Source: Mycobacterium sp. (GTDB taxonomy: Bacteria > Actinomycetota > Actinomycetes > Mycobacteriales > Mycobacteriaceae). Taken from it: a stretch of DNA of 64,000 nucleotides. Under the pieces are notes generated by a model. It ran no database searches, had not been told where the DNA came from, and worked only from the letters and a program-made list of their open reading frames with translations. The translations under genes and the position numbers were made by a program. The DNA lies in NCBI GenBank assembly GCA_021732005.1, contig JAKFVT010000025.1, positions 1-64,000 on the forward strand, given 5' to 3'. Below are positions 12,293-38,335 of this stretch, in pieces (the first letter of the stretch is position 1; every line of letters starts with the position of its first letter).

Positions 12293-12364
12293 ATAAGCAC
12301 GGGTCAGTTCGGGCACAAACAACAATTGACGAACCCGCCGAAATTACCGCGATTGACGTAATTG

Positions 12365-12379
12365 CTCACGTACCGTGAG
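12365..12379. repeat. Short inverted repeat upstream of the secreted peptide gene
   Basis: CTCACG at 12365-12370 and CGTGAG at 12374-12379 form a perfect 6-bp inverted repeat around a 3-base centre, 40 bases upstream of ATG 12419. It could be an operator or a short leader hairpin. Nothing else supports either reading. Confidence 0.3.
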
Positions 12380-12418
12380 ACGGTCCAATTCAGCGCGACC
12401 CTAATGGGGAGGGACTCC

Positions 12419-12646
12419 ATGCGAAAATTCATCTTGGGTGTTGCGACGGCAGGAATGATCGCCGGTTCACTGGCCGGCGCAGTCACCGCCAATGCGGCAT
12501 CGACGAACAATGCCACGCCGTCCGGTCCGGGGCATTCACCCATCATCACGGCGCTGGATTGTCAGGGCGGTACCGGAAATATGGGTTGTGGCGCAGGCTT
12601 TTTCTGGCGCGACGGCTGGCGCGGCTGGGGCTGCTACCCCTGCTGA
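12419..12646 (+). CDS. Small secreted Cys/Gly/Trp-rich peptide
   Basis: A 75-residue precursor starting at ATG 12419 behind a GGGGAGGGA ribosome-binding site. Residues 1-26 are a Sec signal peptide with probable cleavage after VTANA. The mature peptide is about 49 residues: a Ser/Thr/Asn/Pro-rich start, then a C-terminal segment with four cysteines and many Gly and Trp (DCQGG, MGCGAG, WRDGWRGWGCYPC). Such composition suggests a disulfide-stabilised extracellular peptide. I do not recognise it. A second secreted-protein gene follows 55 bp downstream, so the two may be cotranscribed. Confidence 0.65.
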   Translation: MRKFILGVATAGMIAGSLAGAVTANAASTNNATPSGPGHSPIITALDCQGGTGNMGCGAGFFWRDGWRGWGCYPC

Positions 12647-12701
12647 TCGTCTGCTCGTAATAACGCGGTATTCATTCCTTTCTGAACGGAAGTCTTCGAA
12701 T

Positions 12702-13229
12702 ATGAACTCTCGTTGTATTGGCGGCCTGACCGCCGCCCTGTTATCGGCGGGTATGACGCTCGGCGCCGGCCTGGCAACCGCCGACCCCGGTGATTACACC
12801 GTCCTGCTGATCGACCCCAATGTGGTGACCGACTCGCTGGCCTACACGGCGGCCCCGCCGATCCTGAATCCCGGCGGCCAGCCCGGTGCCATGACGGTGT
12901 ACACCCACCGCGACGGACGCACGATCACCGACACGGTGTGGGTGCTGGCCGATCCGGCCGCGGCTGCCGGTGCGATCAGTTCCGCGCAGGCCGCCACCCC
13001 CGTCGCCAACCAGAAGTCGGTGGCCGCTCCGGTCGGGCAGGGCGGACAGCTGATCACCGGGACCTCACCGGACGGCACGCGATCGCTGAGTGTCCTGTAC
13101 TTCACCGAGGGCAATGCCGCGACGTCGCTGGAGTTCTCCGGCCCCGTCGCCGACCCGGCGCCCAACGATCTGGTGATCGATTTCGGTCAGAAGCAGGACG
13201 CGTTGATCAAGAGCCAACTCGGCGCGTGA
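12702..13229 (+). CDS. Secreted protein, unknown function
   Basis: A 175-residue protein with an N-terminal signal peptide (residues 1-27, cleavage near LATA-DPGD). The mature part is a small alpha/beta domain with Ala-rich helices (LADPAAAAGAISSAQAATP) and strands such as GTRSLSVLYFTEG. It looks like the small secreted mycobacterial proteins related to LpqN-type domains, but I cannot name the family. It starts at ATG 12702 and ends seven bases before a strong hairpin terminator. It is probably cotranscribed with the Cys-rich peptide gene. Confidence 0.65.
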   Translation: MNSRCIGGLTAALLSAGMTLGAGLATADPGDYTVLLIDPNVVTDSLAYTAAPPILNPGGQPGAMTVYTHRDGRTITDTVWVLADPAAAAGAISSAQAATPVANQKSVAAPVGQGGQLITGTSPDGTRSLSVLYFTEGNAATSLEFSGPVADPAPNDLVIDFGQKQDALIKSQLGA

Positions 13230-13236
13230 CCACGAC

Positions 13237-13274
13237 AGCCCGCGTCGCGCCTGATCATCAGCGCGGCGCGGGCT
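13237..13274. terminator. Bidirectional hairpin terminator
   Basis: Arms 13237-13250 and 13261-13274 pair over 14 bp with one mismatch around a 10-base loop, followed by TT. It separates the convergent secreted-protein gene (ends 13229) and alpha/beta-hydrolase gene (ends 13296). Confidence 0.75.
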
Positions 13275-13295
13275 TTCGCCACCGGGGTTGAATGA

Positions 13296-14210
13296 TCACG
13301 CCTTCTCGTCGCGGTCCCACAAGTCGAGCATCGTGCGCAGGATGTCTTCGGCCCGTCCGAGGCCGGCCAGGTGGCTTTCGCCGGAGAGCGTGTAGAGCTC
13401 GGCGTCGGGGAGCTTGGAGACCACGTGCTGGCCGTGGGCGAACGGAACGATGTGGTCGCGGTCGCCGTGCCACCACCGGACCGGCACCTTGACCTCGTCG
13501 AGCCGGAAACCCCAGTCCCGGGCGAACACCACGATGTCGGCGAGCGGCGCCGCCAGCTGCTTGCGGCTGCCGTTGAGCAGGTCGTCGAGGAACATCGCCT
13601 TGAATTCCGGGCGGACGAGCATCTTGCGGTCACCTTCGGGCGAGATACCCGCATAGATGTACAGCGCCGGCTCGGCCACCGGGCGGATCAACCGAATCAA
13701 GCTGACGGCGGCCAGGCGCAGCGGAGCCCCCGCGACCTCGATGATCGGGGCCGCGAATGTGCCGATTTTCATCAATCCGCCGGCGATTGCCTCCGGTCCG
13801 ACGGTGGGGGCCACCCCGCCGAGCACACCGGCGGCCACAATGCGGTCCGGCATCGCCGTCGCGCAGCCAAGCGTGTACGGGCCGCCGCCGGACAGGCCGA
13901 CGACGGCCATCTTGTCGACGCCGAGGGTGTCGGCGATGATCGCCAGATCTTTCGAGAAGGCCAGCACGTTCTCGTACTGGTAGGGCGTGGAGGAGCCGAT
14001 CCCCGGCCGGTCGACGCCGATCAGTCGAATGTCGTTCTGTTCGGCGAACACTCGCGCTTCCACCGGAATCTGACGTCGAGCCCCCGGGGTGCCGTGCAGC
14101 CAGAACACGGCGCGGCCCTGGGCGCGGCCGAATTCGGCGAAACCGATCTGGCGGTCCTCGGAGACGGCGACGTTGCCTTCCAACTTGGGACGCGCGATAG
14201 CGACAACCAT
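13296..14210 (-). CDS. Alpha/beta-hydrolase
   Basis: A 304-residue alpha/beta-hydrolase fold enzyme. Visible are the oxyanion segment WLHGTPG, the nucleophile elbow GLSGGG (Ser), a late Asp in WWHGDRDHIVP and the catalytic His in GESHLAGL. Substrate specificity (ester, lactone, epoxide) is not deducible. ATG 14210 gives a natural N-terminus; a long in-frame upstream extension to 14483 overlaps the amidase gene and is unlikely. It lies 74 bp downstream of the amidase on the same strand and may be cotranscribed with it. Confidence 0.8.
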   Translation of the reverse strand: MVVAIARPKLEGNVAVSEDRQIGFAEFGRAQGRAVFWLHGTPGARRQIPVEARVFAEQNDIRLIGVDRPGIGSSTPYQYENVLAFSKDLAIIADTLGVDKMAVVGLSGGGPYTLGCATAMPDRIVAAGVLGGVAPTVGPEAIAGGLMKIGTFAAPIIEVAGAPLRLAAVSLIRLIRPVAEPALYIYAGISPEGDRKMLVRPEFKAMFLDDLLNGSRKQLAAPLADIVVFARDWGFRLDEVKVPVRWWHGDRDHIVPFAHGQHVVSKLPDAELYTLSGESHLAGLGRAEDILRTMLDLWDRDEKA

Positions 14211-14284
14211 GGGCACAGTGTCGCACGCGGGACGGCGGCCGCTGCACGGATCGAAGCAAAGGTGGGCGGCGGCAGCAAAGCCGC

Positions 14285-15754
14285 TCAGACAGCGGGCGCG
14301 TCCAGCCATCCGGCCGGGCGTCGCTGCGCCCACGGGATCGCCTGCTCGAGCTGAGCCGCCAGCTGCAGGAGCACGGTTTCTTCGGGAGCCATCAGCTGAA
14401 CACCCAGGGGAAGTCCGTCCTCGGTGGTCGCCAGCGGTAGCGAGATCGCGGCCCAGCCGGTCACGTTGGCCATGGTGGTCCACCCGGTGTGCGCAAACTC
14501 GACATCGAAGAACGCCCGGGTGGTGCCGCGCGGCTGATCCAGGACGCCGTAGTGCGGCGGTGGCGCCAGCAACGTCGGAACCAGCAACACGTCATGGGCA
14601 CCCATTCCCGCGACGAACCGGCGGGTCTGGGCGTGGATGGCCTCGATGGCGTCGGCATAGTCGACGCCGGCAGTGGTGAATCCCTCGCGCATCATCACCC
14701 AGCTGCTGGGCTCGAACTCGTCCTCGCGTGGATCGCGGCCCAGATGGGACTTCGCGAAGTTGTACAGCTGCACATTGCTGACGTTGTGCAGCACGGCGAT
14801 CGCGTCGGCGACGACATCGGGGTCGAACGACGGTGCGCCCGGCTCGATGTGATGGCCGGCCGATTCCAGTGCGCGCCCGGCAGATTCGACGGCGGCCGCG
14901 ACGCGCGAGTCGGTCGGCGGGGCCGGAAACGGGGAGTGCGCGGCGATCAGGATCCGCTGGCGCGGCGGCGGATCACCGATGGCGCGCAGAAAGGCTTGGG
15001 CGGGCGGCGATGCGTTGTACGGATCGCCGGGGGCGCCACCGGTGACCGCGTCAAGGAGAGCGGCGCTGTCGCGGACCGTGCGCGTCAGCGCGTGCTCGAC
15101 GGCCAGTCCCTCCAGCAGCTGCCCGGACGGTGCGAACGAGGTGCGGGCACGTCGGGGTTTCAGCCCGACCAGGCCACAGCACGACGCGGGCACCCGGATC
15201 GAGCCGGTGCCATCGCCACCCGAGGCTGCCGGCACGACGCCGGCGGCCACCGCCGACGCCGACCCACCACTGGAACCACCCGGGGTGATGTCCGGCGACC
15301 ACGGATTGGCGGTGCGGCCGAACAACGACGGCTCGGTGGTGCAGTGATTGCCCCATTCCGGGGTGTTGGTCTTGCCGAACACCACCAGGCCGGCGTCCAG
15401 GTAGCGCTGCACGATCCACGCGGTGTCCGGCGCGATGTGATCGCGCAACGCCCGCGAACCCATCGCCTCGCGGGCACCGGCCAGTGAGGCGCCAAGATCC
15501 TTGAGCAGGAAGGGAACTCCGGCCACCGGCCCGGCGGTCCCGCTGCGCAGCGCGCCACTCTCGTCGAGGGCGACGGCCTGGTCGCGTCCGCGTTCGAACA
15601 GGTCGGTGATGACCGCATTGAGCCCGCGGGTGGCGTCGAGGCGCAGGATCGCCGCGTCGAGCAACTCGGCGGCGGACACGTCTCCGGAAGCGGCTAGTGC
15701 GGCCTGCCCCATGGCATCGAGGTCGGCGAGCTCAGCGGCGAATGTGGGATCCAT
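14285..15754 (-). CDS. Amidase (amidase signature family)
   Basis: A 489-residue amidase-signature hydrolase. The Ser-cisSer-Lys apparatus is visible: Lys in VPFLLKD, and the Gly/Ser-rich GGSSGGSASAVAAG motif with the cis-Ser and nucleophile region near DGTGSIR. The family cleaves carboxylic amides (or aryl-acyl amides) and in mycobacteria has several paralogues (AmiA2, AmiB2, AmiC, AmiD); I cannot assign which. ATG 15754 is preferred; GTG at 15760 is two codons upstream. It precedes the alpha/beta-hydrolase on the same strand. Confidence 0.85.
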   Translation of the reverse strand: MDPTFAAELADLDAMGQAALAASGDVSAAELLDAAILRLDATRGLNAVITDLFERGRDQAVALDESGALRSGTAGPVAGVPFLLKDLGASLAGAREAMGSRALRDHIAPDTAWIVQRYLDAGLVVFGKTNTPEWGNHCTTEPSLFGRTANPWSPDITPGGSSGGSASAVAAGVVPAASGGDGTGSIRVPASCCGLVGLKPRRARTSFAPSGQLLEGLAVEHALTRTVRDSAALLDAVTGGAPGDPYNASPPAQAFLRAIGDPPPRQRILIAAHSPFPAPPTDSRVAAAVESAGRALESAGHHIEPGAPSFDPDVVADAIAVLHNVSNVQLYNFAKSHLGRDPREDEFEPSSWVMMREGFTTAGVDYADAIEAIHAQTRRFVAGMGAHDVLLVPTLLAPPPHYGVLDQPRGTTRAFFDVEFAHTGWTTMANVTGWAAISLPLATTEDGLPLGVQLMAPEETVLLQLAAQLEQAIPWAQRRPAGWLDAPAV

Positions 15755-15805
15755 TGTCACGGATCCTCGCCGCCAGGCCCGGCACCGGCAAGTTGGCGCG
15801 CGGAA

Positions 15806-16243
15806 CTATCCGTTGCCGCCGGGGGTGGCCAGTTCGCTCGACTGGCTCTGCTGGGCGGCGGCATCCTTGGCCGCCTGCTCCTCCTCGGCCGCCTTCTCCG
15901 CCTGGCCCTCCGGGCTGGCCAGCGAGTTGCCTGCCTTGCCCGCGGTGGCAAGCTTCGCGTTGCAGTTCAGGTAGAGCAGCACGGTGTCGGTGACGGGGGA
16001 GAAGTTGTCGCCCTTGAGCCAGTCGGCTTTCTGTGACCGCGTCACCACACAGTCGCCCTGGTTGATCGAGTCGCCGACGGATGTCGCGATGACCGCTTTC
16101 TGCCCGGCGTCGCCGATCGCCTTGGAGGCGTCGGAGTACGACTTGCCGGCGTAGTCGTCGGCCAGCGCGACACCGGATCCGAGCGTGAGGGACATCGCAC
16201 CGAGCGTGAGTGCTCCGAGTCCGAGCCGAACGAGCTTGGTCAT
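15806..16243 (-). CDS. Secreted protein with PASTA-like domain
   Basis: A 145-residue exported protein. Signal peptide at residues 1-28 (LGLGALTLGAMSLTLGSGVALA, cut before DDYAG). The mature start (GKSYSDASKAIGDAGQKAVIATSVGDSIN) resembles a PASTA-type repeat, and the later DCVVTRSQKAD and LLYLNC carry two cysteines that may pair. The C-terminus is an Ala/Gln/Glu-rich tail. A GGAGGAAC ribosome-binding site precedes ATG 16243. Homologous small secreted proteins are common in mycobacteria, without known function. Confidence 0.7.
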   Translation of the reverse strand: MTKLVRLGLGALTLGAMSLTLGSGVALADDYAGKSYSDASKAIGDAGQKAVIATSVGDSINQGDCVVTRSQKADWLKGDNFSPVTDTVLLYLNCNAKLATAGKAGNSLASPEGQAEKAAEEEQAAKDAAAQQSQSSELATPGGNG

Positions 16244-21302: not shown

Positions 21303-24020
21303 TCAGATGACTATGCCTAGCGCGCCATGCAATTGGCTGCGGCTGGTGATTCCCAGCTTGGGAAACACCTTGTACAGATGGGCGGCGACGGTGCGGTGCG
21401 AGACGTAGATGCGGTCGGCGATCTCGCGGTTGGACAGGCCGGCGGCGGCCAGTTGCGCGATCTGGAGCTCTTGAGAGGTCAGGATGGCGGCGGGCCCGGT
21501 TTGGGGAGCGCTCGCCGCGGTGCTCACGCCGGCGGCCCGCAATTCAGCGGCGGCTCTATCAGTGAAGGGTGCGGCCCCTGCGGAGTCGAACGCAGCGAGG
21601 GCCGCGGCCAGGTGGGTTCGCGCGTCGGTGATGCGGCGGCGCCGACGAAGCCACTCGCCATAAAGCAGATGTGTTCGCGCCGTCTCCAGTTCGGCGTCTG
21701 CGTCCTCACCGACCGTCAGCGCGGCAAGGAAGCGCTCCTCGGCTTCGCTATCGGTTTCGGCGAGCACCGCGTGCGCCCGATGCACCAGCATGACCTCCAA
21801 TCCGGAGCCGAGCCGATGCGCCTGCTGCTCGAAATCGGCGAGAAGTGGCCGGGCGAGCTCGGGTCGATTGCACCCGGCGGCCGCCTCGGCGAGGTCGGCG
21901 ATGGCCCATCGCCGGCTGGTCCGATGCTGGGTCATTTTCAGTAGATGACTCAACGCCTCGGTGTGGTTGGCAGAACAGAGCGCCGCCAGGCCTGCCGCCC
22001 AGTGCGCGTCGTCATTCCACAGGATCGCCGGATCCTGGGCCAGCAGCTGTCGGGCCCGGTCGCTGGTCTGGTGGGCCGGCTCGAACTTGCCCTGCCAGAT
22101 CAGTGCACGAGAGAGGGTGGCCGCCGCCGACGCCGCCGTCATCGGCAAGTTCATGTCCTCGGCCATGCGCAACGCGTTCTCGGCCGCAAGTACCGCCGCT
22201 TGGATTCGCCCCTGCAGGATGAGCAATCCTGCTGCCCCGCGCAAACCTTCGCACTCATCGGCGGCCGATCCTGTATGGCGGGATCTGTTCTGGACGTGGT
22301 TCCAGCACGCCAAGGCATGGTGGCGGTCGGATACCGCCTCGGCGGTGAAGGCCAGCGCCATCGACAGCAACGGGGCGTCGGTGACCTCCTCGAGGAGAGC
22401 GGGTAGTCGGGCTCGCAGACTCAGGCCTTCACCGGTGTCGTCGACCAGTGCCAAGGCGATCGCGGTCAGCGGGTCATCGGCGCTGTCATCGAGCCGGCGG
22501 ATGGCGGCCACGATGTCGCGTCGCGGTTCCTCTGCCAGGCCGTGCATGCGGCACTCGATGGCCGCGGCCCACAACAACTCTCGCATTCGGACATCGTCAT
22601 CGTTGAACTTGTCCGCCAGTGCCAAGAGCTCAGCGGCGGGTTGGCCCGGAACCGCCGCAGTGACGTTGAGGACGAACCGGGTGATCGCCAAGGGTTGCGC
22701 CCCGTAATGCAAGTTGGCCAGCGGCTCGGCCTCTTTCAGGATGCTGATGGCTTCGGCCGTCAACCCTGAACTGCGCGCGACTTCCGCCGCCGCGGCCAGC
22801 CGCTGGACCCGGCAGTGCAGGTCGGGGGAGAGCACCGCGGCGCGCCGCAGCGCGGCGGCGGCTTCGGCCCCGGCGCCACGGGCCTGGGCGTGCTCGGCCG
22901 CGTGTTCCAGATCGACGGCCACCTGTTCATCGGGGCCGAAGGCCGCCTCAGCCCGGTGCCACGCCGCCCGGGTCGGATCGGTCACGGCGTCGGCCAGTGC
23001 CCGGTGCACGAGGACGCGCGTTGACAGCGGAGCGGCGCCATAGGCCGTGGAGCGGATCAGGGGGTGGCGAACCCGGATCCGGCCCCCGCCGACGGCGATC
23101 AGACTGGCCTGCTCCAGTGGCGCCAACTGATGAGTGAGATTCAGCCCCATCGCGCTTGCTGCGCTGCTGATTTCGGTTATCGAGCCGTCACTGGCGGAGA
23201 TCAGCAACAGCAGTAGTCGGCTGCCGTCAGACAGCGCCTCGAGCTGGGCCAGAAACGCCCGTTCGACGCGCCGACTGGTGGGCAGCGGTTCGCCGGCGAA
23301 CACCGCAGCGTCACCGCCACGTTCACCGACTGCCGTACACAATTCGATGACCGCAAGAGGATTGCCGTTGGCCTGCCCGAGCACGCGTTGCTGCAGGAAC
23401 GCGTCGACGTGATGCGCCGACTTGCGGACTGTCTCGGTGAACAATTGCTCGGCGTCCCGCGGAGCCAACGGGCCCAGCGAAAGCCGGGGCAGGCCATCCA
23501 GATATGGCGCAGCTCCATCGAGCCCGGTGCGTTCGGCGCACAGCATCATCAGCGGTGCGTTGGTGAGCCGGCGGGCCACGAAGGCCAAAACGTCGAGTGA
23601 GGACTGGTCGAGCCACTGCACATCGTCGACGACGAGGACGAGGCGTCGACGGGCGGCTGCCTCCTCCAGAAGTCCGAGCACCGCGAGGCTGACGAGTAGC
23701 CGGTCCGGGGCCGGGCCCGCGTCCAGCCCGAACGCCGTCATGAGCGCGGTGCGCTGGCGTTGTGGCAACTGATCGGCGTGAGTCAGCACCGGATGGATGA
23801 GTTCGTGTATTCCTGCGAAGCCGACTTCACTCTGGCTTTGTAGGCCCGAGCAGCCGAGTCGGTGATACCCGTTGGCGACCGCCCAGTCGGCAGCCGACGC
23901 CAGCAGCGTTGACTTGCCGATGCCCGCCTCACCGTCGACAACGAGCGCCGCACCGCTGGTGGATATCGCTGCGAGCGTGTCAGTGACGAAGGCCAATTCC
24001 GCTGACCGTCCGAAGAACAC
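21303..24020 (-). CDS. LuxR-family (LAL) ATP-binding transcriptional regulator
   Basis: About 905 residues. N-terminal AAA-type ATPase: FFGRSAEL start, Walker A GEAGIGKST and Walker B LVLVVDDVQWLD. A long central helical repeat region follows, and the last 60 residues form a GerE/LuxR HTH (LTSQELQIAQLAAAGLSNREIADRIYVSHRTVAAHLYKVF). Such LAL proteins are STAND-type signal-activated regulators. The start is uncertain: GTG 24020 gives the common MFFGR start, with TTG 24029, TTG 24056 and 24122 as alternatives. It is divergent from the HxlR gene and likely controls the neighbouring hydrolase genes. Confidence 0.8.
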   Translation of the reverse strand: MFFGRSAELAFVTDTLAAISTSGAALVVDGEAGIGKSTLLASAADWAVANGYHRLGCSGLQSQSEVGFAGIHELIHPVLTHADQLPQRQRTALMTAFGLDAGPAPDRLLVSLAVLGLLEEAAARRRLVLVVDDVQWLDQSSLDVLAFVARRLTNAPLMMLCAERTGLDGAAPYLDGLPRLSLGPLAPRDAEQLFTETVRKSAHHVDAFLQQRVLGQANGNPLAVIELCTAVGERGGDAAVFAGEPLPTSRRVERAFLAQLEALSDGSRLLLLLISASDGSITEISSAASAMGLNLTHQLAPLEQASLIAVGGGRIRVRHPLIRSTAYGAAPLSTRVLVHRALADAVTDPTRAAWHRAEAAFGPDEQVAVDLEHAAEHAQARGAGAEAAAALRRAAVLSPDLHCRVQRLAAAAEVARSSGLTAEAISILKEAEPLANLHYGAQPLAITRFVLNVTAAVPGQPAAELLALADKFNDDDVRMRELLWAAAIECRMHGLAEEPRRDIVAAIRRLDDSADDPLTAIALALVDDTGEGLSLRARLPALLEEVTDAPLLSMALAFTAEAVSDRHHALACWNHVQNRSRHTGSAADECEGLRGAAGLLILQGRIQAAVLAAENALRMAEDMNLPMTAASAAATLSRALIWQGKFEPAHQTSDRARQLLAQDPAILWNDDAHWAAGLAALCSANHTEALSHLLKMTQHRTSRRWAIADLAEAAAGCNRPELARPLLADFEQQAHRLGSGLEVMLVHRAHAVLAETDSEAEERFLAALTVGEDADAELETARTHLLYGEWLRRRRRITDARTHLAAALAAFDSAGAAPFTDRAAAELRAAGVSTAASAPQTGPAAILTSQELQIAQLAAAGLSNREIADRIYVSHRTVAAHLYKVFPKLGITSRSQLHGALGIVI

Positions 24021-24062
24021 GTTTGCCAATCTAGCAGTCTGAGTTTGGCTTGCCAACGCAGC

Positions 24063-24076
24063 TATACTTGTCAGGA
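24063..24076 (+). promoter_or_regulatory. Leaderless promoter of the HxlR gene
   Basis: TATACT at 24063-24068 matches the mycobacterial -10 consensus TAnnnT and ends seven bases before ATG 24076, so transcription should start at or next to the A of the start codon. No good -35 is apparent. Confidence 0.55.
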
Positions 24077-24528
24077 TGCGCACTGATCCGTGGTCCGACG
24101 ACGCGTGTCCGATCGCCCGCACGATGTCGGTGCTGGGTCAGCGGTGGGCGATCCTGATCGTCCGCGAGGCCATGCTGGGCCGGTCCCGGTTCTCTGAGTT
24201 CCGCGCACAATTGGGCGTGGCCTCCGACGTGCTCAGCGCACGCCTGTCCGAGCTGGTGGCGGCCGGCATCCTCGAAGTCGTCGACTACCGCGATCCGGGC
24301 GACCGGACCCGCAGTCGCTACGTGCTGACCGATGCCGGACGCGACCTGGCGCCCGTACTGGCAGCAATGGGGCAGTGGGGCCACAAATATGTAGCCCGGC
24401 CCTACGGCAGCGGTTACCGGTTCGTCGAGGAGGAAACCGGCGAACCGGCCCGAATAGGATTCCGTCGTGCCGACGGCACCTGGGTGCCGACGCGGCGCAT
24501 CGCGCTCACCGACACCTACGCCGGTTAG
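24076..24528 (+). CDS. HxlR-family winged-helix regulator
   Basis: A 150-residue HxlR-type MarR-like regulator. The N-terminal CPIARTMSVLGQRWAILIVREAMLG contains the family cysteine (CP) that often senses electrophiles or oxidants; then FSEFRAQLGVASDVLSARLSELVAAGILE is the winged helix, and DRTRSRYVLTDAGRDL the wing and dimer helix. The C-terminus after residue 100 is a short extension. It is divergent from the LAL gene and overlaps the convergent hydrolase by 4 bp. Confidence 0.85.
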   Translation: MRTDPWSDDACPIARTMSVLGQRWAILIVREAMLGRSRFSEFRAQLGVASDVLSARLSELVAAGILEVVDYRDPGDRTRSRYVLTDAGRDLAPVLAAMGQWGHKYVARPYGSGYRFVEEETGEPARIGFRRADGTWVPTRRIALTDTYAG

Positions 24529-29043: not shown

Positions 29044-29541
29044 GTGAAGCGAATTCTCGCGGTCGGTGTCGGCGTGCTCGGCTGCAGCATGCTGCTCATG
29101 GCTTGCTCCGACAACAACAGCAGCAGCAAGGGCTCCAGCTCGGCGACGGGTGCCGCGCCCACCAGTGTCTCGGTGGCCTCCAGCGGGAAGACGTCGGTGA
29201 AGGTCGAGGGAAATGACCTGCAGGGCCTGGACCTGAACTCCGTGACCTGCGTGAAGCAGGGCGGCACGATCAACATCGCCAGCGGCGCTGTGGGCGGCCA
29301 GCAGGGGCTCGGTGTGGTCATGAAAGACGGTCAGCCGCCGACCGTGCAGTCCCTCGGGATGGTCGTCGACGGCAACGCGCTCGCGGTGAGCGACAACATG
29401 GGCATGAAGACCGGTTCTGCCGACGTGAAGGTGGACGGCAACACCTACACCATCACCGGCGAGGCGGCCGGCGCCGACATGAAGAACCCCATGGCCGGCA
29501 TGATCAGCAAGAAGTTCGAAATCTCCGTCACCTGCAAGTGA
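29044..29541 (+). CDS. LpqH-type (19-kDa antigen family) lipoprotein
   Basis: A 165-residue lipoprotein. The signal sequence ends with a lipobox LMAC, so Cys21 is the likely lipidated residue. A Ser/Asn-rich linker (DNNSSSKGSSS) precedes a beta-rich domain with the LpqH pattern (KTSVKVEGNDLQGLD, SVTCVKQGG, NTYTITGEA, KFEISVTC). The two domain cysteines probably pair. LpqH relatives are abundant cell-surface glycolipoproteins and TLR2 ligands. Translation starts with GTG 29044; a hairpin terminator follows. Confidence 0.85.
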   Translation: MKRILAVGVGVLGCSMLLMACSDNNSSSKGSSSATGAAPTSVSVASSGKTSVKVEGNDLQGLDLNSVTCVKQGGTINIASGAVGGQQGLGVVMKDGQPPTVQSLGMVVDGNALAVSDNMGMKTGSADVKVDGNTYTITGEAAGADMKNPMAGMISKKFEISVTCK

Positions 29542-29592: not shown

Positions 29593-29641
29593 GTCTCGCC
29601 GTTACCTGTATCGGCGGCCGTGGCCGACTTATGATCCAGCC

Positions 29642-31324
29642 GTGTCCATCACCGGCGATCTGCAGCGGGCCCGCCAGCTCGCCCTTGCCGCCCAGGAAGA
29701 GAAGGCCAAAGACCTCCTGCTGTCGCTGATGCCGCAGATCGAGAACGAGGACCGCGACGACCTCGCACTCGAAGCCTTCGCCCAACTGGGCGAAATCTAT
29801 CTCACCCGAACGGCTTACGACGGCACCCGCGAATGCCTGAAGCGCATGACCGACTGCCTCGCCGCATACCCCGACCGCGGAGCCGAGACCGACCTCATGG
29901 TCGCCCGCTACATCCTGCGAGCACGCTTCCTGCGCACCGGTCTGGCCGCGGCCGCCGGTGAACACGAAGAAGCCGCTCGGGAACTGACCGGACTGCGCGA
30001 CGACGACGCCGCGCAGCGGTTCGCCGACCTGGAGCCCGAACAGCGCCACCTCGCGACGTTGGCCGGGGTGCTGTGCGCGACGGCGCTGTGCGACGACGAC
30101 CTGCACGTGCCGGCAGCGCAGTTGTGGCAGGACGTCATTCCGGTCATCGACGAGCTGGCCGGGGGCACCGACGACGCCGACCAGCTGTTGGTCGCCGCCG
30201 GGCTGGCCTACGGCCGGTTCTGCGTGGAGACCGGCCGACTCGACGAAGGGGAGCAGTGGCTGCGTCGGGCCGGTGCCCGCGCGCAGCGCCGCGAGTGGAA
30301 ACTGTATTGGGCCAGAGCCGAACTCGAGACCGCTGCCGCCATGTGGATGCGCGGCGATCATGAGTCCACCGAACGTTTGGTCGGGTCCGCCTATCCGGTG
30401 ATCGCCGAGCATTCCCGCGCACATGACGTCGCCCGTTGCTGGCTGTATTTCGGGCTGACCCGGCTGGGTGTCGGCTGGCTCAAAGAGGCCGACGAATCCT
30501 GGGGCCACGCCGAGACGCAGTGGCGGGAGTTGGGCCGTCCGCTGTTCGTCCATCGCATTCTGTTGCAGCGCAGCTGGATTTCGGTGTTCCGCGGCCGCTT
30601 CGACGAGGCCGTCGAGCAGGTGGCGGAGGCGCGGCGGTTCCTCGACGGCTGGCCGCGATCGAGTTGGCTGCAGTATGCGCGGCTCGACGACCACCTCGGT
30701 TCGATCTGGCGGGCCGACGCGTTGGCGGACCTGAACTTCGACGGAATCGGCGATCCCTCGGACAGCTGGCAGGCCAACAAGGAGCGGCAGGTCGCCTCGC
30801 TTGGCGTCACTCGGTTCGAGTCGGGAAGCGACCGTCACCGCAGTGCGCTGGCCAAGCTGGAGAAGGCCGCGGAACTCAAGATTCCGGCCGCGCTCGCGGT
30901 CGACTCGGTGCGCTACGCCATGACGGATGCCGACGCGCGCTGGCGGTGGGCGTCCCAGGTCTCGGCGCGCATGCTGGCCGGCGCTTTCTCGGTGGCCTGG
31001 GAGTGGGAGAACGACGAACTGCTCAGCGAACTCATTGAATACCACTGCGCACGAGGCACTTTCGCCAGCGAGCCGCGCGGCGAGGCTGGCGGCTGGGAGG
31101 CGCCTGCCACGGTGACGGTTCCCGTCGAGACCTTCGACGAGGAGGCACTGGCCGCAGGCGGCTACTCGGTCGACGCCCTGACTCAGACGACACTCGGAGC
31201 CTTGCCGCCGCTACAGATGGATCCCGACGGCTCACCGATTCTGGCGCGCTACCGGCTGCTTGCGCAGAACCGCTACGGCCAGGCCGTCACCTCCGGCGGC
31301 CCCGTCTGGTCGACGTGGCCATGA
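29642..31324 (+). CDS. TPR-like helical-repeat protein coupled to a CHAT protease
   Basis: A 560-residue, all-helical protein without TM segments. Residues 1-320 contain TPR-like helix pairs (LALAAQEEKAKDLLLSLM, DLALEAFAQLGEIYLT, DEGEQWLRRAGARA, LKEADESWGHAETQWREL). It begins with GTG 29642. Its stop overlaps the start of the CHAT gene in an ATGA, so the two are translationally coupled. By analogy with TPR-CHAT pairs (for example Csx29-type and other bacterial caspase-like systems), it is probably the substrate, sensor or regulator of the protease. The C-terminal part (about 430-560) does not look like TPR. Confidence 0.7.
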   Translation: MSITGDLQRARQLALAAQEEKAKDLLLSLMPQIENEDRDDLALEAFAQLGEIYLTRTAYDGTRECLKRMTDCLAAYPDRGAETDLMVARYILRARFLRTGLAAAAGEHEEAARELTGLRDDDAAQRFADLEPEQRHLATLAGVLCATALCDDDLHVPAAQLWQDVIPVIDELAGGTDDADQLLVAAGLAYGRFCVETGRLDEGEQWLRRAGARAQRREWKLYWARAELETAAAMWMRGDHESTERLVGSAYPVIAEHSRAHDVARCWLYFGLTRLGVGWLKEADESWGHAETQWRELGRPLFVHRILLQRSWISVFRGRFDEAVEQVAEARRFLDGWPRSSWLQYARLDDHLGSIWRADALADLNFDGIGDPSDSWQANKERQVASLGVTRFESGSDRHRSALAKLEKAAELKIPAALAVDSVRYAMTDADARWRWASQVSARMLAGAFSVAWEWENDELLSELIEYHCARGTFASEPRGEAGGWEAPATVTVPVETFDEEALAAGGYSVDALTQTTLGALPPLQMDPDGSPILARYRLLAQNRYGQAVTSGGPVWSTWP

Positions 31325-32661
31325 CCACGACCCTGGTGCTGCGGTACGCCGACGTCGGAGTGGCGACCTATGCCAGCCTGCGCATCGTCGGCAGGCCGGA
31401 ACGCACCGTGACCTGGGTGGTGCACGAGCCGATCGTGCTCGCCGCGCTGGAGGAATTACGCGGGGCGCTGCCCGATCCCGACGGCGACGAGAGCCTGGCC
31501 GACGCGCTCGACCGGGCGTTGACCCGTGGCCCGTTCGCCACGGCGAAGGGGGAGTTGACCCTCGCCTACATCCTGGGTGTGCTGCTGATATCCGAGCCGG
31601 CGTGGCAGCTGATCGGGGAATGCGTCGCCGATCCGCGCCCGGTCGTGTTCGTCTCACCGAGCGCGCGCCTGGCCCGGATTCCGTGGGCGGCATTGGCGGT
31701 TCCGCTGACGGGGCCGAGTCCCGAGGAGTTGGTCGCCGCCCGCAAGGAGGCGGTCACCTTCAAAGGGACCACCGCGGCCCGCATTCCGTGGCAGCTCGCC
31801 GACATCGACACCGTCACCGAGGGTGTGCGGCTGATGGAGATGGTCGACGTGGTGATGGCGGTACCGCCCAACATCGTGCACGCCCCTCGCACACCGGCAC
31901 GCTGGCAGGAAAGACGCGGTGCGCCAGCACTTCTCGTGGTCGATCCGCGCGTACCGGGCCAGCGGCCCGATTCCGCCCTGGGTTCGGTGCTGGGCCGGCC
32001 GTCGAGCGAGGGCGCGCTGACCCGCCATTTCGGCGAGCTGCTCGCGCACCGCGCGGTGCTGCCCGAAGTCACCGCCCCGGTGGAGTTGTTCCGCCGAACC
32101 GACGCCGACCGGGGCTGGCTGGCCGCACACCTGAAGCTGGCTCCGAGCCGGATGCTGTTCGTCGGTCATGCCAGCGCCGCCGACCGTGCGCACGGCTACG
32201 CCGACCGCGCGGCCCTTCACCTGGCCTGCACGGCTGCGGCGGACGGCGCGGCCGAACCGGTCGGGGATCACCGCCCGCTGCTGGCCTCGGACCTGATGGC
32301 CGCCCAGCTGCCGGTGCCGCCGCGGGTGGCTCTGCTCGCATGCGGTTCCGGCGGTGACTATCAGTTCGACGAAGCGACCGGATTGGTCGCCGCGATGGTC
32401 CTCTGCGGCAGCGAGCTGGTGACCGCCACGCTGTGGTCGCTGCCGACGACGGCGGGCTATCGCCGGTTCACCGGGCGTGCCGAGGATCCGATGGCCGACG
32501 TGGTGATGGCCGTCGACGACGCGCACGAGGCCGACGACGCGGTGTTGAGCGTGAATCGCTGGCAGCGGGCCCAGATGCGCCGGTGGCGCGACGGCGATGC
32601 CACCGCGAGCCCGCTGTACTGGGCCGCGGTGGTCACCTTCGCGGTCGGGGGTGCCCGGTGA
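31321..32661 (+). CDS. CHAT-domain (caspase-like) cysteine protease
   Basis: A 446-residue protein. The CHAT domain occupies roughly residues 100-440: the ARLARIPWAAL segment (about 115-125) matches the P.HRLPW.AL strand of CHAT proteins, the catalytic His is His283 in LFVGHASA, and the catalytic Cys is Cys341 in LLACGSGG. These proteases act by clipping partner proteins after specific residues in conflict or stress-response systems. It overlaps the TPR-type gene by 4 bp. The active site is complete, so it should be catalytically competent. The C-terminal end (GDATASPLYWAAVVTFAVGG) is the usual CHAT closing strand. Confidence 0.85.
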   Translation: MTTTLVLRYADVGVATYASLRIVGRPERTVTWVVHEPIVLAALEELRGALPDPDGDESLADALDRALTRGPFATAKGELTLAYILGVLLISEPAWQLIGECVADPRPVVFVSPSARLARIPWAALAVPLTGPSPEELVAARKEAVTFKGTTAARIPWQLADIDTVTEGVRLMEMVDVVMAVPPNIVHAPRTPARWQERRGAPALLVVDPRVPGQRPDSALGSVLGRPSSEGALTRHFGELLAHRAVLPEVTAPVELFRRTDADRGWLAAHLKLAPSRMLFVGHASAADRAHGYADRAALHLACTAAADGAAEPVGDHRPLLASDLMAAQLPVPPRVALLACGSGGDYQFDEATGLVAAMVLCGSELVTATLWSLPTTAGYRRFTGRAEDPMADVVMAVDDAHEADDAVLSVNRWQRAQMRRWRDGDATASPLYWAAVVTFAVGGAR

Positions 32662-32723: not shown

Positions 32724-33383
32724 TTAGGCAGGGGGCACGCACACCGCGATCGCGGACTCGTCCTCCGGGAGGTAGTAGGCGTCGATGATGCTGCCGGGGG
32801 AGACCTTGGCCAGCGCGGCCTCGGGCACCAGGGTGACCTCCTGGGCCGGGAACTGGCCGCCGCCGGGTCGGGTGACGATCAGATCCAGTTCGACCTCGCG
32901 GAGCTCCTCACGCTCGCGGCCGGTGGCCCGCATCCCGGTCACCACGCCGCACGAGCGGGTGCCGAAGCGGATCAGATCGAGCTGGTCGTGGGTCAGCACG
33001 CCGTGGCGCAGCAGTGTGTGGTCGGCGGTGGCCCGCACCGCGATCGCATCGTCGGCCAGCGAGAGCTGCTTGCGGCTGGCCGGGTCGAAGGACACCAGCA
33101 CGATCACGCCGGGGCGCAGGGCGGACAGCACCTCGTCATCCGCGCCGTGGCACAGTCGGCCGGTGAAGCGCTGGCCTGCAACGCTTTCCACTTCGATGAC
33201 GATCACGGGATCGTCGGATCCCGCCACCATCTGCACCGTGCCTACGCCGATCGAGCGCGGGCAGCGGGTACTGCGTGGACGTCGCCTGCGCGGCGGCTGT
33301 CCGGCCAGGCCGGCGGCGACGATGATCGAGGCGAGTGCGATGGCGGAGACGACGGCGATGGCGCCCAGGAGTGCATCAGACAT
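32724..33383 (-). CDS. Membrane-anchored protein with duplicated beta domain
   Basis: A 219-residue protein with one N-terminal TM helix (AVVSAIALASIIVAAGLAG), a basic stop-transfer segment (PPRRRRPRS) and a cytoplasmic part built of two similar beta-rich halves (VIVIEVESVAGQRFTGRL, ALRPGVIVLVSFDP and VELDLIVTRPGGGQFPAQEV, KVSPGSIIDAYYLP). The repeated halves look like small OB/SH3-like barrels. I do not recognise the family. It lies antisense between the CHAT pair and the second unknown pair and may or may not belong to the system. Confidence 0.6.
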   Translation of the reverse strand: MSDALLGAIAVVSAIALASIIVAAGLAGQPPRRRRPRSTRCPRSIGVGTVQMVAGSDDPVIVIEVESVAGQRFTGRLCHGADDEVLSALRPGVIVLVSFDPASRKQLSLADDAIAVRATADHTLLRHGVLTHDQLDLIRFGTRSCGVVTGMRATGREREELREVELDLIVTRPGGGQFPAQEVTLVPEAALAKVSPGSIIDAYYLPEDESAIAVCVPPA

Positions 33384-33449
33384 GGTGTGCAGCGTGCCGA
33401 CAGTCGGCGGCTACCGAACCCAACTTTGCGCTGGCCTTATTCTGTCCGG

Positions 33450-34769
33450 ATGAGCGCCGGCCCGGACACCGTCACAGGTGTCGGCACGTCGCAACCGCGG
33501 CGGGCCGTGATCGACCGTGCGTGGCGGATGATCGGCCCCGGCGTCGAGGTCCTGAGCGGCGACGACGGCGGGCCGCTGCGCAGGACGGTGAAGCGGATCA
33601 TCGATCCGCTGGTGCTGAGGCTGCGCAGCAATCCCGCCTACTCCGCACCGTTCGTCGACGCCGACGTGGCGGCTGAGATGGCCGACGTGATCGGCGACCA
33701 CGCGGACCGGCTGCGTTGGGCCGCAGCATGGTTCGATTTGATGAAGCAGGAACGCCGGCGTCTACGCATCACCACCGGCAATGCCCAGGATCTTTATTTC
33801 CCAGTGTGTTTCGAGCTCGCCGTCACCGACGGGGCGCCCGGCGGGAACGGGCTCGACGTGGCGTCGGCGGCGCTGCGTGCCGTTCACGACGACCGCGACC
33901 GCACCGCCGTGGAGGTGCTCAACGCGCATGTCGCCTCACCGCAGGTGATGGCTCGCCTGTCGGCCCAACTGCATCGCAGCTGGGCTGACGTTCGCGCCGA
34001 CGACAGCATCAGCGGACCGTTCCTGGCCGGCCTGACCACGGTGCTGGGTCCGGCCGAGGGGCATCGCGCCGCCATTGCCCGCCAACGGGTGTGGTCGGCG
34101 CTGATCGCCGATGCGACGCCGCACAACCTCGGCGCCCGCGCCCGCAGTCAACCGTCGGCGTTGCCGTGGTCGCTGGTCGACCTGGGTCTGACCGCGGCGT
34201 TGCCGCTGGGGCCGCCGCCGTTGGCCGGGGGACCGGAGCGCGACCGGCCGCTGGACCGCAGCGTGGTCGACCGGGTGCGGGCCACTCTGCGCCGCGCGCT
34301 GGATCGTGACGAGTTGCCGGACGTGCCGCTGCTGTGCGCCGAGGAGGTCGACCGGGCTTGCGCGCCTTGGGGGTTCCTCGGTGAGGACAATCAGGCCGCG
34401 CTGGTGGCGGGTATCGAGGTGGCCGGCCAGCTGGCACCGCTCGACGAACGGGCCGTGACCACCTATCAGGTGGCGACGATCATCCAGGCCCGGTTGCGCA
34501 AGGAGGCGTACGTGCTGCACGCACGCCGGGTACTGGCCGGTGCCGACCCGTTGCATCCGCGTCAGCGGCGGGTCGTCGAGGACCTTGCGTGCTTCGCCCA
34601 GCCGTACCTGAGTCGGCTGTGGGCGCGGTTGCACGGCCGCGACGTATGGCAGGAACCCTGCGACGATGTCGACGATCTGCGTGCCCTGCTGGAAGGGGTG
34701 GCTCGTTCGGTCAGCCTCGACCACCGGCAGCGGATCAAGGCGATGCTGGAAGTGCAGGTGACCGAATGA
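33450..34769 (+). CDS. Unknown helical protein, first of a coupled pair
   Basis: A 439-residue soluble protein, mostly helical and Arg-rich (RRAVIDRAWRMIGPGVEVL, ADRLRWAAAWFDLMKQERRRL, TTYQVATIIQARLRKEAYVLHARRVL). No signal peptide, TM helix or recognisable catalytic motif was seen. ATG 33450 is the first plausible start after the divergent membrane protein gene. It ends in an ATGA overlap with the 34766 gene. Its neighbourhood to a TPR-CHAT pair recalls the partner genes described in actinobacterial caspase/TPR-associated conflict systems; this is recall plus context, not a demonstrated homology. Confidence 0.65.
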   Translation: MSAGPDTVTGVGTSQPRRAVIDRAWRMIGPGVEVLSGDDGGPLRRTVKRIIDPLVLRLRSNPAYSAPFVDADVAAEMADVIGDHADRLRWAAAWFDLMKQERRRLRITTGNAQDLYFPVCFELAVTDGAPGGNGLDVASAALRAVHDDRDRTAVEVLNAHVASPQVMARLSAQLHRSWADVRADDSISGPFLAGLTTVLGPAEGHRAAIARQRVWSALIADATPHNLGARARSQPSALPWSLVDLGLTAALPLGPPPLAGGPERDRPLDRSVVDRVRATLRRALDRDELPDVPLLCAEEVDRACAPWGFLGEDNQAALVAGIEVAGQLAPLDERAVTTYQVATIIQARLRKEAYVLHARRVLAGADPLHPRQRRVVEDLACFAQPYLSRLWARLHGRDVWQEPCDDVDDLRALLEGVARSVSLDHRQRIKAMLEVQVTE

Positions 34770-35896
34770 GGTTGGTGGCCGACTCCGGGTTGTGGCGGAT
34801 CGGGCCCGCGGTGGCCGCGGTACCGTCGGTCGCGGTGCTCGAGGTCGACGGCGCGGTGCTGGCCTGGACCGTCGACGATTCGGCGGACGCGTCCGGCGCA
34901 CAGATCACCCTGACCGACGCCGCCCGCGCGGACTGGCTGTGGCGGGTACTCGGCGAAGACGGCCACCATGCGCTGGCCGCTGCGACAGCCGAACCGCCGG
35001 ATCGCGATGCCGGAGTTGATCTTTCGGGCGTCGAGATACAGCCCGGCGCCGTGGACGGGTTGCGCCGGCTGGCCGTCGGGCATTGGCTGCGCCGGTGGTG
35101 GCCGGCCAGTGTGCGCGACGGCATCGTCGGCCTCGATCCGGCATTGCTGGATGCCGAGATAGCGCTGCTGACCGCCGATGCCGAGGACTTCGTCGCCGAC
35201 GACGGCCTGGACGCCGACATCGGCGCGCTGCTGGCCCCGCACGCCGGCGCGCTCGCAATGCATCTGCTCGCCGGTGACCCGCGGGTGGTCGAGCTGGTCC
35301 GCAACTCCGTGCGGCTGGCCGAGGAGGTGGGCGTCGACGCGCCGGGCTGGGCCGACCTGAGCGACGCCCTCGAGAACGTTCAGCTGCAGCCGACGGCGGT
35401 GCGCCAGGACGACTATGCGCTGGCCGCCGGCGGCGACACCGGACCGACCCCGACGGGACTGATCGCCCGTGGCGCGGCGTCGATCGCGTGGTCCGGGGTG
35501 CCCAGTGGCGTCTTCGACGCCGCGGAGGACACCGTGAGATGGGCGGTGGCCGCCGACGGCGACCGGGTGACCGCGACGCTGCACACCGCGGTGATCGGAC
35601 CCGGCTCACCAGCCGGTATCCCGGTGGCACTGCGCTGTGGGGACGTCGCCGGCGTGGGCGAACTCGACGGATCGGGCCGTGCGGTGATCCCGCTGCTCGA
35701 TCGGTCGAACGCACCGTTGACCGCCGCGGGCGGATGGGACCAGGACTGGTCGGCCACCGCCGTCACCGTCGGGGCCGAGGTGGCGGAGGCTCCCGACGCG
35801 CGCGAACGGGTCCGGCGGTTCGCCCGGCAGCGACTCGCGCAACCGGGACCTGATGCGTTCCTCGCCGAGACCCTGGCCGCGGAGTCCGACTACTAG
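34766..35896 (+). CDS. Unknown protein, second of a coupled pair
   Basis: A 376-residue acidic protein. An N-terminal beta segment (AVLEVDGAVLAWTVDD), a central helical part with WLRRWWPASVRDGIVGLDPALLDAEIALL, and a C-terminal beta-rich segment (RWAVAADGDRVTATLHTAV, GSGRAVIPLLDRS) are seen. No known motif. It is translationally coupled to the 33450 gene (4-bp overlap), and its stop overlaps the convergent ureohydrolase by 4 bp. Likely forms a complex with the 33450 product; possible accessory or sensor proteins for the CHAT protease. Confidence 0.65.
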   Translation: MRLVADSGLWRIGPAVAAVPSVAVLEVDGAVLAWTVDDSADASGAQITLTDAARADWLWRVLGEDGHHALAAATAEPPDRDAGVDLSGVEIQPGAVDGLRRLAVGHWLRRWWPASVRDGIVGLDPALLDAEIALLTADAEDFVADDGLDADIGALLAPHAGALAMHLLAGDPRVVELVRNSVRLAEEVGVDAPGWADLSDALENVQLQPTAVRQDDYALAAGGDTGPTPTGLIARGAASIAWSGVPSGVFDAAEDTVRWAVAADGDRVTATLHTAVIGPGSPAGIPVALRCGDVAGVGELDGSGRAVIPLLDRSNAPLTAAGGWDQDWSATAVTVGAEVAEAPDARERVRRFARQRLAQPGPDAFLAETLAAESDY

Positions 35897-36936
35897 GCCA
35901 TTGGCGACGGCGGTCCGGGCTTGACGTTGGCCGCGTCGCGGCGGCGGGCCGCCATCCCGGCCAGCGCCTCGAACACCACCCGGTGGGCGGCATTGACCGT
36001 CAGTTCGGCGTGGTCGTACGCCGGGGCGACCTCCACCACGTCGACGCCGACCACGTCGTGCTCGTAGCAGAGTTGCCGAACCATGCGCAGCAGATCGGCA
36101 CTGGTGATTCCGCCCGGCTCAGGTGTTCCCGTGCCGGGCGCATGCGCGGGGTCCAGAACGTCGATATCGACTGATACATAGAGCTTTTCGGCCTTGTCGA
36201 GTGCTTCGGAGACGGCGCGTCGCATCACTTCCTTGAAGCCGTGGTCCCAGATCTCCTGCATGGTGTGCCAGGTCATGCCCTGTTCCTGCATCCACTCGAA
36301 CGTGTCCTGGGGCGGCCAGTACCCGCGCAACCCGACCTGAACGAAATGCGTTCCGGGAACGGCCCCGGACTCGATCAGCCGTCGCATCGGGGTGCCATGG
36401 CTGGCCAGGTTGCCGTCGATGATGTCCGCGGTGTCGGCGTGCGCATCGAAATGCACGATCCCGACATTTCCGTAGCCGTGCACGTCGGCGACCGCCGTGG
36501 CCGACGGCCAGGTGATCGAGTGGTCGCCGCCCAGGACCACCGGCACGATGCCCCGCGATGCGACGGTGTGCACCCGCTCGCGGATGTTGGCGTGCGAGAC
36601 CTCGGTCATCCCGTGCGGGCAATGCGCGTCACCGAAGTCGACGACCTCGAGCCAGTCGAAGATCTCCAGCCCGAGATCCATGTGATACGTGCCGGGTTCG
36701 TAGGCGGTGGCCCGGATGGCCCGCGGACCGAACCGGGCACCCGGCCGGTTGGTGGTGGCGATATCGAACGGGGCGCCGACGATCGCCACGTCCGGGCGCC
36801 AGCTGTCCAACTGCTCCGGCTCCGTCAGGAACGGGCGATGCCCGAACGAGGCCAGGCCCGCGTACGGCAGATCCAGTTGCCCGGCCATGCCGGGAGGCAG
36901 ATCACGCGCGGGCTTGTGGTCATGACCGGAACTCAT
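35893..36936 (-). CDS. Agmatinase/ureohydrolase family enzyme
   Basis: A 347-residue member of the arginase-agmatinase superfamily. The binuclear manganese motifs are complete: GGDHS, DAHADT and SVDIDVLDPAHAPGTGTPEPGG. The length and the GARFGPRAIRA segment fit agmatinase, guanidinobutyrase or guanidinopropionase. It hydrolyses a guanidino compound to urea plus an amine. Its stop overlaps the convergent 34766 gene. No polyamine or guanidine operon genes flank it, so the substrate stays open. Confidence 0.85.
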   Translation of the reverse strand: MSSGHDHKPARDLPPGMAGQLDLPYAGLASFGHRPFLTEPEQLDSWRPDVAIVGAPFDIATTNRPGARFGPRAIRATAYEPGTYHMDLGLEIFDWLEVVDFGDAHCPHGMTEVSHANIRERVHTVASRGIVPVVLGGDHSITWPSATAVADVHGYGNVGIVHFDAHADTADIIDGNLASHGTPMRRLIESGAVPGTHFVQVGLRGYWPPQDTFEWMQEQGMTWHTMQEIWDHGFKEVMRRAVSEALDKAEKLYVSVDIDVLDPAHAPGTGTPEPGGITSADLLRMVRQLCYEHDVVGVDVVEVAPAYDHAELTVNAAHRVVFEALAGMAARRRDAANVKPGPPSPMA

Positions 36937-37210: not shown

Positions 37211-38335
37211 TCACAGCAGCGGGGTGTCGTACCCGTCGTTGTCGCCGTCGCAGATGCTGAGGTTCGGACTCACCACGTAGCGCGCCTGATTGCCGCCGGC
37301 CCGCCGGGCCTCGTACATCGCGGTGGTGGCCAATGCCACGATCTCGTCGAGGATCTCGTTGGGTGGGTGCTCGACCAGCGGCTGCAGCGGGGTGCTCACC
37401 ACACCGATGCTGGCCGTCATCCCGGCCGGCGACGAGGCGATCGCACCCCGGATCCGCTCGATCAACGGTGACGAATCGGGTGTCGTGAAGCAGTCGGCGA
37501 CAAGGAATTCCGCCTCGCTGACATGTCCGACGATCGCGTCGCGGCGCACCGTCTCACGCAGCGCCTGGCCCGCGGCCACCCGTGCCCGGTTGCCACCGCG
37601 GTTGCCTGCGACGGCGACCATCGCCGCGAAGCTGTCGATGTTTACGACGGCGATCACCAGGTAGCGGTCGTCGCCGCGGTTGCGCGAGGCCAGGAGCGTG
37701 GCCGTCTGCAGATAGAACGCGTCGCGGTTGAGCAGTCCGGTGAGCGGCTCGACCGCATCGGCGCCATCCTCGGCGCCGGTCAGCCACACCACCAGCCGGC
37801 AGGAGAAAGCCGCGAAGACATACAGCAGCAGGATCAATGCGACGCCGGCCAGCGTCAGCGCAAGGTCGGCGCCGGCCATCTGCACAGCCAGGTAGAGCAG
37901 GGTTCCGAGGGCGATGGTCAGGACCGTCGCCAGCAACCGCGGACCGTGAAAGAGCGCGGCGTACCCGATGATCAGTGCGAACGATGAGGCGCCCAGCAGT
38001 CCGTAGAGCGGCACCACCGGAAGGATGGACCCGATGGTGATGGACACCGCCGCGACGACGACCAGCAATGCCGACTCGTTGCGGGTCGGCCAGCGGTGCC
38101 GCAACCAGATGAACGTCGACGCGAAGCACAGTGCGGACACCACGATCAGCAGGGATCGGCTGAACGGCCACTGCAGTGTCGCCGAGCTGCCGATGGTCGA
38201 CAGGGTGATCAGGCCCAGCGTGAAGACGCTGCCGGCGATCACCCGCGAGGTGTAGGTCTGCGCGCCACGGGCCGCGAGCAGGGCAGTCAAGGAGTAGTAC
38301 TGATTCGCGGATCGGGTGGACAACGCCAGACGCAT
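37211..38335 (-). CDS. Membrane GGDEF-domain protein with degenerate active site
   Basis: A 374-residue protein. Six or so TM helices (residues 30-185) form a sensory membrane region, followed by a GGDEF-type domain from about 195 (DAVEPLTGLLNRDAFY). The signature motif is degraded: the expected GGDEF reads SEAEF (273-277), and the metal-binding Asp of the DIDxFK strand is NIDSF. It is therefore unlikely to synthesise c-di-GMP and may act as a receptor or interaction module. It is preceded by GGGTGGGG as ribosome-binding site. It lies near a second, intact GGDEF protein (39385). Confidence 0.75.
   Translation of the reverse strand: MRLALSTRSANQYYSLTALLAARGAQTYTSRVIAGSVFTLGLITLSTIGSSATLQWPFSRSLLIVVSALCFASTFIWLRHRWPTRNESALLVVVAAVSITIGSILPVVPLYGLLGASSFALIIGYAALFHGPRLLATVLTIALGTLLYLAVQMAGADLALTLAGVALILLLYVFAAFSCRLVVWLTGAEDGADAVEPLTGLLNRDAFYLQTATLLASRNRGDDRYLVIAVVNIDSFAAMVAVAGNRGGNRARVAAGQALRETVRRDAIVGHVSEAEFLVADCFTTPDSSPLIERIRGAIASSPAGMTASIGVVSTPLQPLVEHPPNEILDEIVALATTAMYEARRAGGNQARYVVSPNLSICDGDNDGYDTPLL

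Follow-up and report, generated by a model that had tools for sequence, protein, structure and literature searches.

The overlap of a gene for a CHAT protease with a gene for a long TPR-like protein in a Mycobacterium genome raises the question of what such a protease does there and with which partners. Bacterial caspase-like CHAT proteases are mainly understood as parts of CRISPR or mobile defence systems. In the current work, this locus was analysed within a window, being the whole stretch of DNA of 64,000 nucleotides, which is derived from a genome of 5.76 Mb close to Mycolicibacterium rhodesiae. In most sampled representatives of the Mycobacterium-type genus to which the window belongs, and in actinomycetes of the Nocardia, Rhodococcus and Streptomyces types, one such protease is a fixed, mostly chromosomal component, always accompanied by two orphan families (named P3 and P4). 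Neither CHAT and TPR nor their combination is new; for a constant set of four actinomycete genes that includes the two orphan families, no match was obtained in the libraries and papers searched. No description of this four-gene set was found in a literature search with incomplete coverage of subscription papers.

The TPR-CHAT gene pair

The features of the pair and its upstream region are as follows:

29630..29635, + strand: TATGAT, putative -10 box for leaderless transcription; the TPR start codon follows after 6 nt
29642..31324, + strand: TPR scaffold protein gene (GTG start, 560 aa; conserved C-terminal tail)
31321..32661, + strand: CHAT cysteine protease gene (446 aa from ATG 31321; Pfam PF12770, E 8.7e-9, over the curated cut-off)
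32167..32169, + strand: codon of catalytic His283, in the FVGHAS motif of CHAT
32341..32343, + strand: codon of catalytic Cys341, in the LLACGSG motif of CHAT

The TPR stop and CHAT start codons share a canonical four-base ATGA overlap, and the two overlapping genes are located where the original prediction had placed them. The open reading frame list starts CHAT at GTG 31315, whereas the overlap points to ATG 31321, a start that yields the numbering His283/Cys341 of that prediction. A junction of this stop/start type (NTGA) in the correct frame is present in 97 of the 118 loci in which TPR and CHAT are separate genes. The GTG start of the TPR gene at 29642 is independently supported by a TANNNT motif ending exactly 6 nt upstream, which is retained at this spacing in 90 of 93 mycobacterial-type homologous upstream regions.

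The CHAT protein had been described as a complete protease, and both the Pfam match and the two catalytic codons agree with this. All 25 aligned homologues match Pfam CHAT and carry the His and Cys without exception, and the pair was observed in 128 of 129 homologues overall, the lone deviating sequence (in locus L077) being a copy read across a frame break. From its sequence, CHAT is highly likely to be an active protease. The opposite proposal, namely that it is a dead pseudo-protease acting as a scaffold only, has a precedent in related conflict systems, where inactive forms make up about 70% of the caspase domains that occupy the vWA effector position (PMC7159879), yet it is made very improbable here by a catalytic pair lost from a single, frame-broken copy. 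Frame breaks in otherwise intact CHAT or P3 genes were noted in L073 (9316-10628 and 12786-14095) and L077 (7975-9329), both from genomes of genus g11, and could be assembly errors or inactivation.

When searched alone, the window TPR protein matched no Pfam family. The earlier assignment as TPR-like is nevertheless correct, since 15 of 20 homologues match Pfam TPR_12 and the TPR profile matches kinesin-light-chain TPRs (E 2.4e-12). Natural TPR-CHAT fusions were observed as one open frame of 1004 codons in L201, in L202-L204 (about 1010 aa if counted from the likely start codon) and in L218 on a Streptomyces megaplasmid (978 aa); together with the profile match, these suggest that TPR repeats and CHAT behave as one unit. 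Across lineages, the TPR protein is best conserved in its C-terminal domain and tail, which carries the motif A..RYG...W.TWP (R544 in 121, Y545 in 123 and W559 in 112 of 124 sequences), and the fusions join at this same domain and tail. As both the best-kept part and the fusion joint are located there, the TPR tail probably docks on CHAT. Regulation of CHAT by the TPR protein is very probable.

Composition, distribution and inheritance of the cassette

Downstream of the pair, the window contains a second putative promoter and three further genes:

32724..33383, - strand: P5 (one predicted membrane segment and two small beta-barrel-like repeats; not a core member)
33438..33443, + strand: TATTCT, second putative -10 box for leaderless transcription; the P3 start codon follows after 6 nt
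33450..34769, + strand: P3 (439 aa; orphan family predicted to be all-helical; the cassette member with the highest conservation)
34766..35896, + strand: P4 (376 aa, orphan family; ATGA overlap with P3)

TPR, CHAT, P3 and P4 are all present in 120 of 120 loci with a complete region. P3 loci holding fewer than four genes represent contig-end cuts, pseudogenes or remnants, or L205, where an open frame occupies the TPR place and its TPR is too diverged to score in the search. When loci were instead retrieved around CHAT homologues of the window's family, 27 of 34 also held P3 and P4 homologues, the other seven being two loci truncated by the end of a contig, a single fragment of CHAT and four CHATs that are only distantly related (among them a second copy in genome G022). 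An independent search with a plasmid-borne CHAT as query covered 200 genomes of the order and detected CHAT in 29, each of them P3-positive; the CHAT-negative genomes among those listed are P3-negative. The view of the locus as an undescribed system is thus retained with respect to its conserved catalytic residues and to TPR and CHAT, which occur together everywhere in other genomes; its extent of two genes is not, as P3 and P4 (33450-35896) had been missed.

A pattern scan for P3 across GTDB returned 335 loci, the best 80 of which are all mycobacterial, and the P3 of M. rhodesiae DSM 44223 and Mycobacterium sp. ENV421 is 95-96% identical to that of the window. Of 250 genomes sampled from the order, 39 contain P3, as do 22 of 297 of the class, whereas in a 247-genome sample of the phylum it was found in none outside the class Actinomycetes; in these samples of order, class and phylum the cassette is therefore found only in Actinomycetes. 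Of the 29 members sampled from the window's genus, 23 have the cassette and six lack it.

The arrangement of the genes varies. In the window and most mycobacteria the order is TPR-CHAT, an inverted P5 and then P3-P4; Nocardia- and Rhodococcus-type genera, as well as four other families, have P3-P4-TPR-CHAT; L201 and L074 have TPR-CHAT-P3-P4 with no P5 between; and L205 and L207 have overlapping junctions throughout the operon. Since the order differs and the four members stay the same, the unit is not a mere inherited order. Traces of decay were also seen: L216 (about 9083-9537) and L217 (about 9656-9814) hold P3 remnants, and L094 (9756-10040) a CHAT remnant, in each case with no other cassette gene left, from which it follows that the whole cassette was lost together.

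Pairwise distances are correlated among the four genes (r 0.87-0.93) and less so with rpoB (0.38-0.59). All four are under purifying selection (dN/dS 0.07-0.26), weakest in P4 (0.20-0.26), and are therefore not chance open reading frames. In a tree of P3 plus CHAT, the window's genus groups with g11, family f3 and one genus of f14, and the Nocardia and Rhodococcus types group with f33, f34, f15 and the other f14 genus, these branches being fully supported. Families f1 and f14 come apart in the cassette tree on strongly supported branches, whereas the rpoB tree keeps every family whole, a conflict that implies either block transfer between families or two ancient types sorted as a block. Within the window's genus the two trees agree, and after the block movement or ancient split the cassette is, judging from these trees, inherited vertically.

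On this comparative evidence the four genes are one co-inherited unit, and it is very likely that TPR, CHAT, P3 and P4 also form one functional unit. The alternative, that CHAT-TPR and P3-P4 are two independent pairs merely staying adjacent, could draw on the inverted gene that parts them in the window and on their separate promoters: TANNNT precedes P3 as well, 66 of the 86 homologous upstream regions having it at that spacing, and with two separate leaderless promoters in mycobacteria the two pairs could be produced separately. The 6-nt spacing matches that of leaderless SigA-type transcripts, the sigma assignment being presumptive. Against such independence stand the occurrence of the same four genes in two orders, their contiguity and overlapping junctions in other lineages, and their matched evolutionary distances, joint absence and joint decay, which leave it extremely unlikely.

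A proposed protease switch and its relatives

Neither partner of the TPR-CHAT pair has a recognisable domain. Among homologues that share 35-91% identity with window P3, about 85 residues are invariant, many of them Arg, Lys, Trp or Asp, and the predicted structure of P3 is all-helical (pLDDT 80.8, pTM only 0.62). The P4 model (pLDDT 83.9, pTM 0.80) comprises short strands at the N-terminus, a helical middle, a flexible linker at about 209-227 and a C-terminal beta region; residues 209-227 form its sole long segment of pLDDT below 50, around the motif DDYALAAG (215-222), while a second conserved motif, AE.LAAESDY, is C-terminal (tail AESDY or DSDF). Searches of Pfam, NCBIfam and PADLOC assigned no family to P3, P4, P5 or the window TPR protein; Foldseek of the P3 and P4 models against the PDB returned nothing below E 0.2, and PDB profile searches with CHAT, P3 and P4 gave no useful match. 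Judged by these models, P3 and P4 are protein families of unknown fold.

The closest worked-out relative of the TPR-CHAT pair is Csx29, a TPR-CHAT protease that is inactive, through a misplaced catalytic pair, until target RNA binds, and that upon activation makes a single cut in Csx30, a partner encoded alongside (PMC10028731). By analogy, the cassette is best read as a switch (compare Craspase) in which a split TPR-CHAT would be the protease unit, P3 would sense the cue or activate the protease, and P4 would serve either as a regulator or as the substrate; that it represents an undescribed actinomycete four-protein protease switch of this composition is favoured with moderate confidence. What P3 and P4 do, what is sensed and what results from it are inferred as follows. 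CHAT would be kept inactive by the TPR solenoid; a cue would be sensed or relayed by P3, which is the best conserved of the four and has many invariant Arg, Lys, Trp and Asp residues; activated CHAT would then make a limited cut, most likely in P4 or else in an unlinked host protein; and the cleavage product would alter the state of the cell, for example in a stress, dormancy or envelope response. The chances that P3 acts upstream of CHAT are about even, and P4 as the CHAT substrate is a more tentative proposal; the absence of a recognisable domain in either makes both the sensor and the substrate role guesses. A candidate cut region in P4 is the flexible linker directly before the invariant DDYALAAG motif. 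Such a linker is weak evidence of a cut site, since the Csx30 cut fell outside its predicted inter-domain linker, and a conserved cleavage site in P4 is not established, as the linker sequence varies among homologues.

Craspase or CASP (type III-E, with Csx29, Cas7-11, Csx30, Csx31 and CASP-sigma) likewise joins a TPR solenoid to an active-type CHAT His/Cys pair and has partner proteins encoded alongside, a likeness extended by the TPR-CHAT fusions among relatives of the window pair. The cassette differs in that no CRISPR array in the window and no PADLOC-recognised Cas gene accompanies it, its TPR and CHAT are usually separate genes, and its partners are two orphan families. The conflict systems built on EACC1/EACC2-caspase and MoxR-vWA (VMAP, iSTAND) similarly place a caspase-fold protease in a conserved multi-gene unit and are enriched in actinobacteria and other complex bacteria. 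In contrast to MoxR-vWA, there is no MoxR, vWA or NTPase among the four cassette genes (no Pfam match in TPR, CHAT, P3, P4 or P5), and unlike in both types, the cassette CHAT has no swappable C-terminal effector and the membership is fixed, not shuffled. SAVED-CHAT and CalpL-type proteins (type III ancillary proteases) also use a CHAT or other protease as ligand-triggered effector, but the cassette protease has no SAVED or CARF match (Pfam gives CHAT alone in 25 of 25 homologues, and PADLOC none) and no type III locus is nearby. As regards a gasdermin pore protein next to CHAT, as in bacterial gasdermin-caspase systems, P3, P4 and P5 gave no Pfam or PADLOC match, and the P3 and P4 models none in the PDB.

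Also related are CHAT loci on Rhodococcus plasmids (p4 of DN22 and pNSL1), whose CHAT is about 30% identical to that of the window, where a gene likewise ends at or overlaps the CHAT start and the TPR protein shares the C-terminal domain of the cassette TPR. These loci are plasmid-borne, however, and hhalign does not identify the genes next to their CHAT as P3 or P4 (probability below 1%). In each (L221, 5019-12443; L222, 24-10585), a related CHAT is encoded together with a large TPR protein and two orphan genes, the partner genes being strongly diverged between the two plasmids. A faint visual likeness between the C-termini of a plasmid partner and P4 was dropped, as profile comparison of the partner genes with P3, P4 and TPR detected no homology.

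Possible stress, conflict or envelope role

The original prediction had taken the layout as the signature of a conflict or stress system and had reported no obvious CRISPR or phage-defence neighbour. The latter statement agrees with PADLOC checks of the cassette region and its nearest neighbours and with a repeat check of the window; the former, as far as conflict is concerned, found no backing, as the cassette showed no association with defence models, CRISPR, phages or viral contigs and is stably inherited in most sampled genus members. With PADLOC 2.0, none of 25 CHAT homologues and none of the five cassette-region proteins matched a curated defence model; no CRISPR-like repeat array was detected in the window, and no P3 in phage and viral collections. 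Among the ten nearest neighbours, PADLOC gave one weak CARF-model match, to a LuxR regulator (21306-24122), which was discarded as it covers only the C-terminal HTH.

An anti-phage or abortive conflict system, in which P3 or P4 would sense an invader and CHAT would cut a host protein or activate a toxin-like partner so that growth stops, nonetheless deserves weighing. CHAT/TPR proteases serve defence elsewhere (PMC10028731, PMC9729208), tree comparison indicates that the cassette moved between families, it resides on some Streptomyces megaplasmids, its CHAT has relatives with other partners on Rhodococcus plasmids, and six of the sampled genus members do without it. These points are offset by the defence searches just described, by a cassette tree that follows rpoB inside the genus and by conserved -10 elements of housekeeping type, so that a conflict role is possible but unsupported and, on balance, rather unlikely. 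Stress or regulatory proteolysis suits the cassette at least as well, and a role mainly of this kind rather than an anti-phage one is slightly favoured, given the lack of a PADLOC, CRISPR, phage or viral link and the presence in most genus members. A stronger version, an actinomycete-specific programmed-proteolysis system in which the split TPR-CHAT and two new-fold families govern a cell-fate decision (e.g. dormancy or self-killing) in mycobacteria and filamentous relatives, is speculative and rather unlikely as it stands.

The neighbourhood suggests a further possibility, that of an envelope-stress module in which the cytosolic protease cassette acts with P5, a 19-kDa lipoprotein and membrane-anchored PQQ-like propellers. 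The lipoprotein gene of the window is:

29044..29541, + strand: 19-kDa lipoprotein antigen (Myco_19_kDa; Pfam PF05481, E 2.4e-32; not a core member)

This gene is a recurrent neighbour in most of the family's cassette loci, P5 adjoins the cassette in several families, and other loci contain membrane-anchored propeller-like proteins with weak PQQ_2 matches. But these neighbours vary by lineage and some are absent (P5 is missing from L074 and L202), and P5 outlasts the decayed cassette in L216, from which it follows that it has a role of its own; an envelope module is accordingly quite unlikely. As a fixed component of these actinomycetes, the cassette opens a defined protease pathway to experiment in genetically tractable organisms, and it yields hypotheses on the function of the uncharacterised P3 and P4 families, which occupy over 300 genome loci.

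Several neighbours deserve mention in their own right. In L219, a protein encoded next to the cassette has a match to DUF3592 (compare P5). The membrane-anchored propeller-like proteins are located in L205 (10536-11666), L207 (7875-9155) and L212 (15562-17699), from families f14, f15 and f34, with the weak PQQ_2 matches in two of those tested. On the Streptomyces megaplasmid, the fused TPR-CHAT gene of L218 is followed after about 2 kb by a gene (12105-15845) for an nSTAND1 NTPase of 1246 aa that carries WD40 repeats; this NTPase is not a constant neighbour. In the window, an agmatinase gene (35893-36936) adjoins a gene for a GGDEF-family protein (37211-38335, - strand; Pfam E 3.6e-12), which carries the signature SEAEF in place of GGDEF and is for this reason probably a degenerate diguanylate cyclase.
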